Positions 7,036 to 48,825 of a stretch of DNA of 64,000 bases are shown one piece after another. The DNA is from Ruegeria lacuscaerulensis. GTDB taxonomy: Bacteria; Pseudomonadota; Alphaproteobacteria; Rhodobacterales; Rhodobacteraceae. The stretch lies in NCBI RefSeq assembly GCF_013031245.1, contig NZ_WPZL01000009.1, forward strand, positions 62,001 through 126,000, written 5' to 3'. How positions within the stretch are numbered: the first letter of the stretch is position 1; every line of letters begins with the position of its first letter. The translations under genes were made by a program, and so were the position numbers. The notes below the pieces were generated by a model. It ran no database searches and had not been told where the DNA came from. It saw only the letters and a program-made list of their open reading frames with translations.

Positions 7036-7791
7036 ATGCAAAAAGAAATGTCCAGCCTGGCAATACTTGTGCATCCGGGGCGCTGTGGTTCGACTGTTCT
7101 GGGTGGCCTTATTGGCCAGCACTCCAGAATCGCCTGGCAGGGCGAAGTGTTTACCGGCAAGGGCCTGATTAAGCAGCTGGGCTCAAACGGCGATTTACAT
7201 TGGCGAGACTTTTTGAGTGATAGGCGAGAGCACGTCTTCCGCCCCATTCTTGGCGTTGAGATAAAGACCAGGCAGCTTCACGTCAAAGGCATATTCGGTT
7301 CAGGAGTAGCGGACTCGATACAAAATTTGGCAGATGTCTCAAACTGGCCATTGATGTTCCTACACCGAAAAAACCACATTGAACGGCTGGTTTCGGCAAT
7401 GGAGGCCAGGCGGAGAAGCAGGCACAACTACAGGGTGGAAGATGAGCCCGAGCCTGTCAGTATTCGGGTGCCCTACTTAGTTTATGACACAGCTTACGGA
7501 ATCAAGTACCGGTCGGTCTCCGATTGGCTGTCAGAGGTTGAGATCATCGAGCAGCAAATTTCGGAAGAAATCAGCAGCCGGGGCGGGTTGGTTCTGTCTT
7601 ACGAAGAACATATTGCTCAGCACCCGTTTGAAGGTGCGGAAGCAATTATTGGTCACTTGCAAGAGCAACCGGAAGAAGCTGAGATTACCTACCGGCGGAT
7701 AAACCCGAAAAACCTGTCAGAGCGAATTGAAAACTTTTCACAACTGGAACAGTGGCTAACACCGCAGCAATTCGCCCGTTACTGTGCTTAA
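7036..7791 (+). CDS. PAPS-dependent sulfotransferase-like protein
   Basis: Probable cytosolic sulfotransferase of about 251 residues. The N-terminal motif VHPGRCGSTVLGGL (about 12-25) is the 5'-phosphosulfate-binding loop, and FLHRKNHIERLVSAM (about 113-127) matches the 3'-phosphate-binding region, with Arg and Ser in the expected spacing. The rest is poorly conserved and gives no acceptor. Base composition is lower in GC than in the surrounding housekeeping genes (many AT-rich codons), which hints at acquisition. It lies alone between a sulfatase gene on the opposite strand and nqrM. Low-complexity evidence rules out little else; a Stf0- or sulfotransferase family 3-like fold is the best guess. 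Confidence 0.7.
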   Translation: MQKEMSSLAILVHPGRCGSTVLGGLIGQHSRIAWQGEVFTGKGLIKQLGSNGDLHWRDFLSDRREHVFRPILGVEIKTRQLHVKGIFGSGVADSIQNLADVSNWPLMFLHRKNHIERLVSAMEARRRSRHNYRVEDEPEPVSIRVPYLVYDTAYGIKYRSVSDWLSEVEIIEQQISEEISSRGGLVLSYEEHIAQHPFEGAEAIIGHLQEQPEEAEITYRRINPKNLSERIENFSQLEQWLTPQQFARYCA

Positions 7792-7854
7792 GGTTTAGCC
7801 CCTAAGCATCAAACAGCCTGGGCGATACAAGGAATTGTCGCGTTTTGGCTGAGG

Positions 7855-8085
7855 TCACTCACCCATATTTTCGACCATCTTTCTGGCCCGTTTGCATTGC
7901 AACTTATCGCGCAGCGGACTGTTGGGATCGACGTCCTTTTGACAGACCACGCATTTATCCGCACCGGAAATAGCGTTCAGCCCCCCGCAGCTGCCCTTGA
8001 TGGTCTTACCCATCAGCATAACGCCGAGCGACATGCCGACTATAATGATCAACAGCAGAACGAAGGCCAGAATAAAGGTGCTCAT
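7855..8085 (-). CDS. nqrM: Na+-NQR maturation protein NqrM
   Basis: Small 76-residue membrane protein needed for assembly of Na+-translocating NADH:quinone reductase, probably by delivering iron for the cysteine-ligated centre in NqrD/NqrE. It has one N-terminal transmembrane helix (residues 4-25) and then four cysteines at about positions 33, 45, 48 and 64 (SCGG, CVVC, LQC), the signature of the DUF539 family. It lies directly downstream of apbE (stop-to-start gap about 15 bases), so the two maturation factors form a short unit. They are separated from nqrABCDEF by about 3 kb of unrelated genes. Confidence 0.92.
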   Translation of the reverse strand: MSTFILAFVLLLIIIVGMSLGVMLMGKTIKGSCGGLNAISGADKCVVCQKDVDPNSPLRDKLQCKRARKMVENMGE

Positions 8086-25633: not shown

Positions 25634-26162
25634 CCTCAAAGAGGACTTAAGGTTGACCAGGTCGGACGGCGGCTTTGTCCCGCATCGAAGCCATTCGCGC
25701 CTGGCGCAGCATCTGTGACTTTGGGCTCGATGTTGTCGCCGGAGCGATCGCGGCATCTTTTCGAGTGCCCCGCACCGCTCAGGCGTGGAACGGCCCAAAT
25801 CGGCCACAACCGATGTAGTCAAGCGCCGCGGTGCAGCTTCTCCAGACCGGACTTTCGCCGCGGCTGCATGATCCAGGTTCCCTCGAACTCACTGTCTGCG
25901 CAACGGATCGGATTAACGAGCCCATCCATCCAGAGGGCCGCAAACCAACCCGATTTGCATATTGGTTGGAATGCTTCATACTTGATCTCGAAGGGGTTGC
26001 TGGATTTGGCATGACCCCTCAGGTGGATTTGGCTCAAGAAGTTGGAAACCGCCAATTTGGACGCCCTTCGACGAAGCAGCCACCCAGATAGATTGCAATA
26101 TCAAACCTCAGGGGTGTTCCCTGTGCTGTCACAGAACACCCGCAGAAAAAGGGTGACGCAAA
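25634..26162. other. Non-coding stretch with repeat-family copy B
   Basis: 529 bases with no gene I can support. Positions 25843-25905 hold a copy of the intergenic repeat (CCGGACTTTCGCCGCGGCTGCA, then GAACTCACTGTCTGCGCAACG as in copies A and D). The end of the stretch carries the promoter of the multicopper oxidase gene. Confidence 0.5.
25843..25905 (+). repeat. Intergenic repeat family, copy B
   Basis: Shares GGACTTTCGCCGCGGCTGC with copy D (GACTTTCGCTACGGCTGC) and GAACTCAC.G.CTGCGCAACG with copies A and D, but the two blocks are in swapped order relative to copy D, implying rearrangement within the family. Confidence 0.45.
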
Positions 26163-27725
26163 ATGCCTATAACACCGACACGCAGATCATTTGTCGCCGG
26201 CGGCGCAGCTTGTAGCGCAAGTGCACTGTTACCCATGGCGTCCCATTTGGCTGCCGCTGATACCCGACCGCAACTCCAGATTCCGCCGGAGCTTTTCAGC
26301 GATGGAAAAGGAGAGATACATCTGACAGCGCAACCGGGAACAATGCAATTTGGCAGCCGGGCCCTGACGCCTACTTATGGCTTCAACGGGCCATTCCTCG
26401 GGCCGGCGGTGCGCCTTCGCCGCGGCGACGATGTAGTGATGCATGTTAAGAACGCGCTGCCTGAGCCGACCACAGTCCACTGGCATGGTCTGATAATACC
26501 CGGCGATGCCGATGGCGGTCCGCATCAGATCATTCAACCGGCCGATACCTGACGCGTGCCACTCACTGTTGATCAGCCGGCGGCGATGCTTTGGTTCCAT
26601 CCTCACATTTATCCCGCAACTGCCGAACTGGTGATCAAGGGACTCGCTGGATTATTTATCGTGAGCGACGAGGAAAGTGATGGTCTGGGATTGCCGTCGC
26701 GCTGGGGCGTCGACGACATTCCGCTGATCATTCAGGACCGGCGTTTCAAGCCGGATGGATCCTTTTTTCATCGCTTCAATCTCGCAGCAGTGACTGTTGG
26801 CTACGTCGGCGACACAGCTTTGGTAAATGGGTCTACATATCCAATTGCCAAAACTGCGCAGGGATGGCTTCGTTTACGTATTCTCAATGGGTCGAATGGG
26901 CGGAGCTATCGGCTGGCCGCTTCGGACAACCGTTCGATCCATGTCATAGGGTCTGACGGTGGGCTCCTCGAACATCCCGTTTCGATGAAAGAGCTTCTCG
27001 TCCATGCCGGAGAACGTTTTGAGGTACTCGTGGACGCGCGAGACGGGCAATCGTTTGATCTTGTGACGTTGCCAGTTGATCAGCCAATCATGCGGTTGCC
27101 GCCATTTGATACATCCTTGCCGCTGATCACCATCGATCCCACAGGAGCAGAAGGTGCCGGATTGTTGCCAGACGCACTGGTTACACTGCCGTCGATTCCG
27201 ACAACGCCGCCGCCCCTGAGTCAGTCGTTAACCAGGAATATGAACCGTGACGACGAAGGCATGGGCGCCTTGATGAAAGCCGGTTTGAAAAAACTGAAGG
27301 ACGGTTCGGCCGACGCGTCGGTGGCTAAAAAATTGACTGAGGTGATTGTGGATGGACCAACATTGTCCCAAGCAGAACGGTCAACCGCCAACGGTGTCAA
27401 CGGGTCATCCTTCGCGCTTGACTCCAAGCCATTCTCGGTGAAACAGAACACGTTGTTGCGGTGGCGGATCGATGAGAACAGCGATGCCATGTTGCATCCT
27501 GTTCACATCCACGGATGTCAGTTCCGGGTGCTCTCCATGGATGACAATCCCCCGTCTGCCCATCTGGCGGGTTGGAAAGATACCGTCGCCATCTCAAAGG
27601 GGGGCGTTGCCGAGATCCTGGTCAATTTCCCGCACGCTGCCGAAGTCCGAACGCCCTACATGACGCATTGTCATATACTCGAACACGAAGACTCTGGCAT
27701 GATGGCCCAGTTTACCGTTAGCTGA
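26163..27725 (+). pseudogene. Multicopper oxidase (CueO-like) interrupted by one in-frame TGA
   Basis: One continuous frame encodes a three-domain multicopper oxidase except for a TGA at 26550-26552. Upstream: a Tat signal (TRRSFVAGGAACSASALLP) and domain 1 with HWHGL. Downstream: WFHPHIYP, the middle domain, and C-terminal ligands HPVHIHGCQF and HCHILEHEDSGMM. All four copper-ligand blocks are intact. At the stop the sequence reads QPADT-stop-RVPLTVDQPAA, where relatives have Trp-Arg, so a single TGG to TGA change explains it. The downstream part could restart at a GTG at 26556 but would lack export signal and half the trinuclear site. It is a recent nonsense pseudogene unless the base is a sequencing error. 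The intact family oxidises Cu(I) or phenols in the periplasm. Confidence 0.88.
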
Positions 27726-28220
27726 CTTGGTTGGTTCTCCGTTCGGCCCATAGCCGACCTTTTGTACGACGTTTGATTTCTGCGGATGCAGCCCGCATTT
27801 CGGACATTCGACGTAGGTACAACATTTTGAGGCTGGTGAACTCACGCGTCGCGCAACAAAGCTGCCATTGGCTGCAGTTGGATCGTCTTAGGTTTTTTGG
27901 CTTGGCTTAAGACAGCATTATCAGAAACCTGACTTTCGTGTTGGAATGCGCTAACGTCCATCTTCTGGGAGACGTTTCCAGTGAACCACCTGTGTTTCCG
28001 TGCGCATAAGGGCGATAAAATCTGATCCAAGCACGGCCAACATAGACGCCAAGACCACTTCTGAGCTGCGGCAGATTCCATGTAACGGTTTATGGGGTGA
28101 CCCAAAGCATATTGTAGAAGTCAAACCATCCACTTCCAGAAGCTGTACGCGTTTACAAAGAACAGAGGCGACATACAGGTTTGTCATCCATGTGTCGTCC
28201 ACAAGGGGAGGGAAATTGGG
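27726..28220. other. Non-coding stretch between the oxidase and gltS remnants
   Basis: 495 bases with no recognisable gene, RNA or strong hairpin. Short open frames on both strands lack protein-like composition or known motifs. Confidence 0.5.
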
Positions 28221-29430
28221 ATGGACCCGATAGCTATTGATGGTCGTCAAGCGATAATAATTGCCATTCTCGCGCTGTATTTTGGGATGTATGTAAACGC
28301 CAAAATTGAAATTCTGCGAAAGCTAAATTTTCTAGATCCGATAACCGGACGCCTTGCTGTATCGATCTTTCTGGCCGCGGTCTAATTCGCCCTTGGCTTT
28401 GAGTTCAAGTTCGACATGGATTTGCGAGATGAGCTCCTTATTGTCTTTTTCACGGCACTTGGCCTCTCCACAACATTTGAAACAATCCTCAAAGGTGGAA
28501 AACTATTTGCCATTTTTGCGGTGGCGGCAGAGGTGTTCATTATCATTCAAAATGTGGCCGGGGGGCTTGTCGCCTACATTACGGCTTAGATCCCTTGATC
28601 GGTTTGTTGGGCGGATCTGTTTCGATGGCTGGAGGCCCGGAACCGCAGCAGCCTGGGCTTCCGTTTTCGAGAAGGATTACGGTATCGCTTCAGCCAGCGA
28701 AGTCGGGATCGCATTTGCCACTGTCGGGATCGTGCTTGGTGGTGTTCTGGGCGGGCCAGTCACTGCGCGACTGGTAACGCGCCACAAGCTGACACCCGAC
28801 GCAGATTCGATTTTGAGCATCGGCACTGCGCATTCTGAAACGGAGGTGAAAATATCCTACGACATTATGTTGCGCACCATTCTGACGATTGCCATCACAA
28901 TCGGCATAGGAACGGGAATCCATTATTTGCTTGAACTGGTTAACTTCAAACTTCCGACATTTGCCGCATGCCTCATCGGTGGAATATTGGTCATCAATCT
29001 GGGACCATTGGTGTTCCGAAAACTGGAGTTCCCCAAGCCAATCCAATCAAGAAGCATGGCCTTGGTTTCAGAACTTTCAATTGGCCTTTCGCTGGTGATG
29101 ACATTGATGGCCGTGCAATTGTGGACTTTGGCTGCTGTCGAGCCCGGAATTTTCTTGATAATTGCGGTTCAAACATTCTTAGCCGTCGCTTTTGCCGGGA
29201 TAATCCTGTTTCGGTTAATGGGATCTGATTACGAAAGTGCGGCAATGGCATCCGGGTTTGTTGGCTTTTTTCTTGGTGTGACATCCACTGGGCTTGCCAA
29301 TATTTCAGCTGCTGAAAAGACCTACGGCGCCGTACCTCATGCACTGCTGGTAATCCCGTTAATAGGCGCCTTTGTTGTGGATTTGACAAATCCGATCATA
29401 ACTCAGCTTTTTATCCAGATACTCAGTTGA
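28221..29430 (+). pseudogene. gltS: Sodium/glutamate symporter (GltS), decayed
   Basis: Reading across three frames gives a full-length GltS. The start MDPIAIDGRQAIIIAILAL is in one frame that meets TAA at 28383, continues as ALGFEFKFDMDLRDELL to TAG near 28587, then shifts to a second frame (LDPLIGLLGGSVSMAGGP) and again to a third (PGTAAAWASVFEKDYG) that stays open to 29430. The signature around GGSVSMAGGPGTAAAW is the helical-hairpin glutamate-binding region. At least one nonsense codon and two frameshifts mean no functional transporter. The 3' frame is open for over 250 codons, so an automated caller would likely list it as a gene. Confidence 0.88.
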
Positions 29431-46939: not shown

Positions 46940-47334
46940 AGCTATCGCGGCAGAGGGGCTGTTCCGTTCGCGGCCCCATGCGCAGGACAAGTTGGTGCGC
47001 TGCGGGTGGGGGCACTGTTCGATGTGGTTGTCGATATCCGCAAGGGCTCGCCGACCTATGGACAGTGGCTGGGTATCGATCTGACGGCCGAGAACGGAAA
47101 ACAGCTTTTGGTGTCCAAAGGGTTTCTACACGGCTTTGTCACGCGGGTACCGGATACCGAGATCCGCTACAAATGCACGGATTATTATGCGCCTGATTGC
47201 GACGGGCGGTGCATTGGGACAGTTGCGGTATCGACTGGGGGCTTGATGGTGATCCGGTGCTGTCCGGCAGGGACGCGGCAGCCCCCGCCTTTACCGATTT
47301 TGACAACCCGTTTGTCTGGGAGAGTATCTCGTGA
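46940..47334 (+). pseudogene. rfbC: dTDP-4-dehydrorhamnose 3,5-epimerase, 5'-truncated and frameshifted
   Basis: Recognisable from GLFRSRPHAQDKLVRCG onwards, but the first third of the gene is missing. A 1-nt deletion in a G-run (near 47010) shifts to the frame of ALFDVVVDIRKGSPTYGQWL and VSKGFLHGFVTRVPDTEIRY. A second 1-nt deletion near 47200 shifts to WDSCGIDWGLDGDPVLSGRD, which ends normally (FVWESIS, stop at 47332). It overlaps the rfbB start by 4 bases, preserving the old operon structure. Confidence 0.85.
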
Positions 47335-48011
47335 AGCTTCTGGTGACAGGGGGTGCCGGTTTTATCGGCTCGGCCGTGGCGCGGCGTGCGGTTGCGGACG
47401 GGCATCAGGTGGTCAATCTGGATGCGCTGACCTACGCGGCCTGCCTCGACAACGTGGCCGAGGTGGCCGGGAATCCCAATTACACCTTTTTAGAGGCTGA
47501 TATTCGGGATCGGGCTGCCATGGATCGGGCGCTGGCCGACCATGCCCCGGACGCGGTCATGCATCTGGCGGCGGAAAGCCATGTGGATCGCTCGATTGAC
47601 GGGCCCGGTGCTTTTATCGAAACCAACGTAACCGGCACCTACACATTGCTTGAAGCGGCAAGAGAGTACTGGGAAGGGCAGGGCAGAGCAGACAGTTTCC
47701 GGTTTCATCACATCTCGACCGATGAGGTCTATGGCTCGCTGGGGCCAACCGGGCAGTTCACCGAAGAAACCCCTTATGATCCCCGCTCGCCCTATGTCGA
47801 CCTGATCACCTTTGTCGCCGACCGTCCGGGCCATGATGCGCGCTATGCCATCGACCCGACCCGCATCAGGGAAGAGCTGAACTGGCGACCCTCGGTCAGC
47901 GTTGAAGAAGGGCTGGAGAAAACCGTTCAGTGGTATCTCGACAATGAAAGCTGGTGGCGCGCGCTGCAAAACCGTGATGGCGTCGGCAAGCGGTTGGGTG
48001 TGAAGGCATGA
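47331..48011 (+). pseudogene. rfbB: dTDP-glucose 4,6-dehydratase with in-frame internal deletion
   Basis: The frame is open (226 codons from GTG), but about 120 residues are missing from the middle. The N-terminal NAD motif [17 protein letters not shown] and DEVYGSLG are intact and run to TPYDPRSPY. The next residues, [17 protein letters not shown], belong near the C-terminus of the normal 345-residue enzyme. The catalytic Tyr-x3-Lys (normally SPYSASKA) has been cut out, so the product cannot be active. An automated caller could list it as a normal gene. Confidence 0.9.
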
Positions 48012-48495
48012 CCATCCTCGTCTTTGGCCGAACCGGACAGGTGGCGCGGGGGGGCTATGACATCCTGCGCACCTCGTGGGTGGTGTCGGTCCATGGCAAC
48101 AACTTCGTCAAGACGATGCGACGGCTGCGGGTGAGCGGGATCAATTGTCCATCGTGGCCGACCAGATCGGCGGCCCGGCCCCCGCGCGGGACATAGCGGC
48201 GGCCTGCCTGTCCATGGTGCAGCAGCTGATCGAGGATGCGGGCAAGGCGGGTATCTACCATTTTGCAGGCGCGCCCGACGTCAGCTAGGCCGGGTTCGCC
48301 CGCGCGATTTTTGCTGAATTAGAGACTGATTGTGATGTAACAGACATCCCGTCCGCCGATTATCCCACGCCTGCCCGGCGCCCGTTGAATTCCCGCCTTG
48401 ATTGTTCCTCACTGGAAACAACTTTCGGCATTAGCCGTCCTGACTGGCGGCAGGGTTTGAGTGATATTCTGAGAGAATTGGAAAACGCGTCATGA
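48008..48495 (+). pseudogene. rfbD: dTDP-4-dehydrorhamnose reductase, internally deleted, frameshifted, with stop
   Basis: Starts [14 protein letters not shown] and then jumps straight to YDILRTSWVVSVHGNNFVKT, losing roughly the central 110-120 residues including the Tyr-x3-Lys. A frameshift near 48117 follows. The frame continues ERDQLSIVADQIGGPAPARD to GAPDVS, where a TAG at 48286 replaces the usual Trp codon. After it, AGFARAIFAELE...DWRQGLSDILREL gives the normal C-terminus to the TGA at 48493. Three independent lesions. Confidence 0.88.
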
Positions 48496-48825
48496 CGACA
48501 CGCAAAGGCATCATACTTGCCGGAGGGTCTGGCACGGGGCGAGTTGGAAATCACCGACCTGCTGCAGATGTATCTGGAAAAAGGCCAACTTAGGATCGAA
48601 ACCATGGGGCGCGGCTATGCCTGGCTGGATACCGGCACCCATGCCAGCCTGCTGGATGCGGGCAATTTCGTGCGCACGCTGGAAGAACGTCAGGGATTGC
48701 AGACCGGCTGCCCGGAAGAGATCGCGCGGCAGTTGGGATGGATCAACGAGGAACAGTTGCGCCAGCGTGCAGAGATGTTCGCCAAGAATGAATATGGCGC
48801 CTATCTGGATGGTTTGTTGAAGTAG
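48492..48825 (+). pseudogene. rfbA: Glucose-1-phosphate thymidylyltransferase, middle deleted
   Basis: Begins MTTRKGIILAGGSGT, the nucleotide-binding start. It then jumps at about 48537 to GELEITDLLQMYLEKGQ and the normal C-terminus (MGRGYAWLDTGTHASLLDAG to YGAYLDGLLK). About 170 residues are lost and the joint is out of frame. The stop is at 48825. It is the last gene of the degraded rfbCBDA operon. Confidence 0.88.

Follow-up and report, generated by a model that had tools for sequence, protein, structure and literature searches.

Bacterial genes without selective upkeep are quickly inactivated and removed, and complete removal probably proceeds mainly through large deletions, according to the available part of a study of bacterial pseudogenes under deletional bias (PMC2916853). 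As for rhamnose genes, the accessible portion of a report on Phaeobacter inhibens states that rml knock-outs reduce attachment and that a 65-kb plasmid carries the rmlA-D operon (PMC11481893). I analysed a 64-kb stretch of DNA (hereafter the window; coordinates within it carry the prefix w), corresponding to positions 62001-126000 of contig C96; this contig belongs to a draft genome (G000) of 5.27 Mb in 106 contigs. The window contains a broken operon for the same four functions as in P. inhibens, and a RepA gene of family PF10134 is found on contig C29, which may continue C96. The window operon differs from the described part of the P. inhibens system in that it is very likely dead and that a second complete set lies on contig C41. 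If the organism resembles P. inhibens, a live rml set matters to it, and this would be the C41 set. With the pseudogenes covered in the available part of PMC2916853, the locus shares the rapid inactivation and removal of unselected genes; it differs in that four adjacent genes are deleted inside with their ends mostly left, which is an early stage. Another broken additional rml copy was found in the same genus (G007, contig C15, locus L028), and its contig carries a PF10134 RepA gene. Its lesions are independent of those in the window.

The window operon is an ordinary but unusually clear case of operon decay. It clearly captures an operon early in its death, at a time when a second set serves; an intact orthologue allows comparison, the genus offers an independent parallel, and the locus may be used for timing deletions against substitutions.

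Lesions of the rfbCBDA operon

The region w46962-48825 contains the remains of rfbC, rfbB, rfbD and rfbA, in that order. The reference was the intact rfbCBDA of another species of the genus (G009, contig C23, locus L025), in which all four genes are complete (186, 346, 283 and 290 aa). Nucleotide alignment (blastn) of the window with this locus gave four collinear blocks with an identity of 81.8-86.5% (82-87% by block). The C-B-D-A order and the homology to intact rml genes identify the ancestor as a dTDP-L-rhamnose (rml/rfb CBDA) operon, while the window copy no longer encodes a working unit of four full-length enzymes. Compared with G009, 360 nt are missing from rfbB, 363 nt from rfbD and 539 nt from rfbA, and rfbC has lost its 5′ part. 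An earlier reading of the sequence alone, which described an rml operon hollowed out gene by gene, was thus right in essence. It was also right that gene order and the 4-base overlaps survive, as seen at all three gene junctions: w47331-47334 (GTGA), w48008-48011 (ATGA) and w48492-48495 (ATGA). Besides the 5′ loss of rfbC, the operon has three deletions inside genes, net losses of 1 nt at three places and a single nonsense codon. With deletions, frameshifts and a TAG codon relative to intact orthologues, the remnants carry the disabling lesions expected of pseudogenes.

All four remnants lie on the forward strand. The rfbC (rmlC) remnant occupies w46962-47334. Its homology begins at w46962, which corresponds to position 7551 of L025, while the sister rfbC spans 7365-7925. 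The 5′ truncation and the net loss of 1 nt at two places (near w47006 and near w47202-47217) agree with the sequence-only reading, which placed both losses in G runs; at least one of the three 1-nt lesions of the operon lies in a G run. The rfbB (rmlB) remnant (w47331-48011) is an open frame of 226 aa, compared with 346 aa in the sister, and its 360-nt deletion removed 120 central codons in frame. At the joint (w47795/47796), the translation reads SPY and then VDL. The Epimerase profile is matched just to position 142 of 240. The rfbD (rmlD) remnant (w48008-48495) has an in-frame deletion of 363 nt (121 codons), placed after codon 14, with the joint (w48049/48050) in a G run. Two further lesions of rfbD are additional to the sequence-only reading: a net 1-nt loss near w48126-48145 and a nonsense codon at w48286-48288 (TAG, for TGG in the sister). 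The rfbA (rmlA) remnant (w48492-48825) has lost its frame through the 539-nt deletion, whose joint (w48534/48535) has a placement uncertain by 1-2 bases. That the frame was kept by two of the deletions and lost by the third is unremarkable at n=3.

The missing centres had been put at about 110-170 residues. The central loss is confirmed, but the actual sizes are 120, 121 and about 180 residues. Similarly, the Tyr-x3-Lys motif had been reported as lost from both rfbB and rfbD. This holds for rfbD, whose YGRSK lies inside the deletion, and for the catalytic Lys of rfbB, but the rfbB Tyr codon survives at the joint. Judging from these lesions, the remnants should make no dTDP-rhamnose. The idea that homologues might naturally lack the central region was rejected: in 36 of the 54 genus genomes (window genome included), both rmlB and rmlA match above the curated cut-offs.

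The second rml set and the pattern in the genus

The sequence-only reading asked whether the genome has another rfb set. Contig C41 has complete RmlC, RmlB, RmlD and RmlA (184, 350, 283 and 307 aa), with domains over nearly their whole lengths. The implied loss of a local L-rhamnose supply therefore fits this cluster but not the genome, and the cell is probably still able to make dTDP-rhamnose from the C41 set. Annotated rml fragments do not equal rhamnose capacity, nor does their breakage equal its loss. The C41 set adjoins ORFs resembling exopolysaccharide genes, a label based on reading the ORF starts and not on protein-family searching. C41 has two tRNA genes, but the window and C23 also carry tRNA genes, so these do not mark C41 as chromosomal.

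With the curated rmlA model, the 36 matching genomes have exactly one copy above the cut-off each, although two of these matches fall short of the model end at 286 (G042 reaches 281 at a contig end, and G045 reaches 268). Among the 54 genomes, the window genome and G007 alone have an additional rmlA match, in both cases below the cut-off. The rmlB model also gave one copy above the cut-off in each of the 36 genomes. Among the matches listed, rmlB fragments occur in the same two genomes, the weaker matches being other sugar-nucleotide enzymes by score. In the window genome, rmlA is matched only on C41 and by the C96 fragment, and rmlB exceeds the cut-off on C41 alone. Among the contigs of the genome, the missing rfb parts turned up only in the distinct C41 set.

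In the additional set of G007, rfbC has a stop and a frameshift; rfbB has one frameshift, one stop and about 25 codons missing; rfbA has a 5-codon gap and a frameshift; and rfbD is still open. Since the lesions differ from those of the window, the two decay events are independent. Decay in G007 is less advanced than in the window copy. In a wider sample of the family, 237 of 296 genomes have rmlA above the cut-off, and at least five (G091, G123, G181, G187 and G216) have two such copies. A family-wide rule of one set is thereby ruled out, and because two copies coexist outside the genus, the one-set pattern is no law.

Descent, selection and age

In the rfbB tree, the window copy and G009 are sisters (support 99/97), and C41 is placed elsewhere. 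The tree has 21 rows: 19 of the 36 above-cut-off sets, the window and the G007 additional copy. The search for rfbC in G030 found nothing. Among the sets compared, none is closer to the G009 rfbCBDA than the window copy.

Over 582 retained codons, the comparison of the window with G009 gave dS 0.70, dN 0.059 and dN/dS 0.084. On the same codons, G009 compared with G042, G045, G037, C41 and G013 gave dN/dS of 0.074-0.123, and the value for G006 was undefined because dS was saturated. The window compared with the same five sets gave 0.098-0.157, above G009 in all five (0.122 versus 0.074 for G013), but these values are unreliable with dS above 1. In dN alone, the window exceeds G009 in four of six outgroup comparisons. 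When changes were polarised with five other sets, the ratio of nonsynonymous to synonymous changes was 17/31 on the window branch and 17/36 on the G009 branch (Fisher p 0.83); 41 nonsynonymous and 124 synonymous changes were left unassigned, and the position of the stop codon was omitted. The upper bound on unconstrained time is 0.021-0.025 substitutions per site, or 6-7% of the window branch, which is rough, to an order of magnitude, and assumes a branch length of 0.35 (half of the dS of 0.70). The retained codons show no clear surplus of amino-acid changes and still look constrained, so the collapse of the operon seems recent.

Deletion joints and damage along the contig

The sequence-only reading regarded repeated internal excision as unusual for simple drift and proposed repeat-mediated deletions or a systematic process. 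When three non-overlapping deletions of these sizes were placed at random on rfbB-D-A (52,591 placements; inside a gene means at least 20 nt from the gene ends), all were intragenic in 18% and each gene received one in 16%.

The G009 sequences corresponding to the two sides of the rfbB, rfbD and rfbA joints have a best identity of 6, 6 and 4 of 15 (P 0.31, 0.31 and 0.75), with longest matching runs of 2, 2 and 1. Compared with 40,000 random pairs, none of the three shows likeness above chance. In the sets of 19 relatives, which share ancestry and so do not give independent counts, the rfbB flanks are above chance (P<0.05) in nine by identity and six by run, the rfbA flanks in one by identity and four by run length, and the rfbD flanks in none by either measure. 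At the rfbB joint of G013, the two sides match over 8 nt in a row. The rfbB match arises because a Pro-Tyr codon pair stands on both sides. Longer repeats were not found at the three joints. Thus, of the proposed repeat-mediated deletions, short homology is plausible at the rfbB joint, while any short shared sequence at the rfbA joint is weak and the rfbD joint offers none. A literature search on microhomology with deletions in bacterial pseudogenes found nothing, and one on rhamnose-gene pseudogenes in Rhodobacteraceae found only a genome paper, which is not a claim that such work is absent from print.

Among 270 non-overlapping long ORFs on the G009 contig C23, 73 have a best match on C96 with 55% identity or more and were taken as orthologue-like. 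A single match covers the full length in 65 of them, and the other eight are split or incomplete. The rfb genes make up four of the eight, with best-match coverage of 31-50%; the other four cover 76-89%. The rfb genes are the only four of the 73 with coverage below 75%. Systematic hollowing along the contig was therefore not seen among these ORFs with a C23 counterpart, and a systematic process can be dispensed with, given also the result of the random placement.

The neighbourhood of the remnant

Contig C96 is collinear with the G009 contig C23 over long stretches (matches above 150 bits), and at least one match breaks the order. Collinearity ends at a tRNA-Pro(CGG) gene (w19437-19513; C23 134443-134519), resumes at the broken rfbC (w46962) and ends again between rfbA and w50486. 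Because it breaks on both sides, the remnant is bounded by rearrangement edges to the left and right. The sequence left of the rfbC break (w46778-46961) gave no match past the rfbC edge in C23, C41, the first 40 kb of C29 and the G007 contig C15, except for one weak 24-nt match. To the right of rfbA, an arylsulfotransferase-like gene (PF14269; w48847-50175, reverse strand) occupies the position of the sister's acyltransferase/SGNH gene. It is one of three such genes around the remnant, the others being at w43574-44941 and w45467-46777.

The non-collinear block left of rfb contains a multicopper oxidase gene (w~26050-27725, forward strand) with one in-frame stop and gltS, a sodium/glutamate symporter gene (w~28200-29430, forward strand), with a stop and a frameshift. 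Neither has a counterpart in the test of 73 ORFs. Two repC-like remnants on the reverse strand, w42531-43160 and C96:8158-9075, share 69% identity over 195 aa and are seemingly 5′-truncated. The former, in the same block, is a C-terminal remnant with a PF11800 match below the cut-off, and the latter abuts an IS240-type transposase. The PF10134 gene of C29 lies on a contig that extends the collinearity of C96 with C23. The G009 genome has no match to PF10134 (RepA) or PF03428 (RepABC), and neither family was found as the replicase of the sister contig.

Possible courses of decay

It is very likely that the window holds a redundant dTDP-L-rhamnose operon that died recently and is decaying by ordinary deletions. 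With a complete set on C41, the window copy would have been dispensable. The break of rfbC during rearrangement probably removed the promoter and silenced the operon, and deletion-biased decay, perhaps with help from short shared sequence at the rfbB joint, would then have followed, all within the final few percent of the lineage's history. In the genus, the two extra copies known are both broken, a small sample in favour of redundancy, while the family genomes that keep two rmlA copies argue against redundancy as a sufficient cause in general. The somewhat higher dN/dS of the window towards the outgroups also counts against this reading. A variant, which seems rather improbable, is that a genome of this genus tolerates only one live set, so that the decay of the second copy was selected rather than neutral; two unequal sets might disturb surface-polysaccharide synthesis, and the extra sets appear linked to contigs with PF10134 RepA in both cases.

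Short homology could also have driven serial excision as a form of local instability rather than plain decay. Three large internal deletions in so short a time are many, which leaves room for such instability, and the rfbB joint speaks for it. Nevertheless, it is unlikely, given the rfbD joint, the lack of likeness at any joint in the nearest relative and the non-independence of the relatives. Deletions in plain decay, too, commonly end at short homologies. Equally doubtful is the view that rearrangement of fused replicons broke the operon and that the adjoining block is a collection of dead genes from plasmids and elsewhere. The repC-like remnants, the transposase, the broken multicopper oxidase and gltS genes and the RepA gene of C29 are consistent with it, and fusion could have caused the rfbC break. 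However, the rfb genes lie in DNA common to C23, where they are complete, and so were not imported with the debris, and G009 has neither replicase family.

An assembly or sequencing fault, with genes full length in the organism and collapsed in the contig, is a very unlikely source of the lesions. The genome is a draft of many contigs, and the three small lesions are net 1-nt losses, at least one in a G run. Against such a fault, the joints have no long repeat, the missing parts occur on no stray contig, a substitution nonsense codon accompanies the deletions, and the great majority of the orthologue-like ORFs match the contig over their full length. It is still harder to believe that the shortened rfbB is retained as a functional mini-protein. 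Its deletion is in frame and dN/dS is low, but recency explains the low value equally, and rfbA, which lost its frame, is lower still (0.048). The shortened protein lacks the catalytic Lys and 120 residues of its centre, the Epimerase match is cut short, and the adjacent genes are frameshifted or truncated.

Other features

A 51-nt stretch at C23 148983-149033 of G009, 14.5 kb from its tRNA-Pro gene, is identical to w19466-19516, the 3′ part of the tRNA, and may be a copy as at an integration site. In the window, a gene for a beta-helix protein has a 95-bp tandem duplication, 93% identical, at w56951-57141 (C96:118951-119141).
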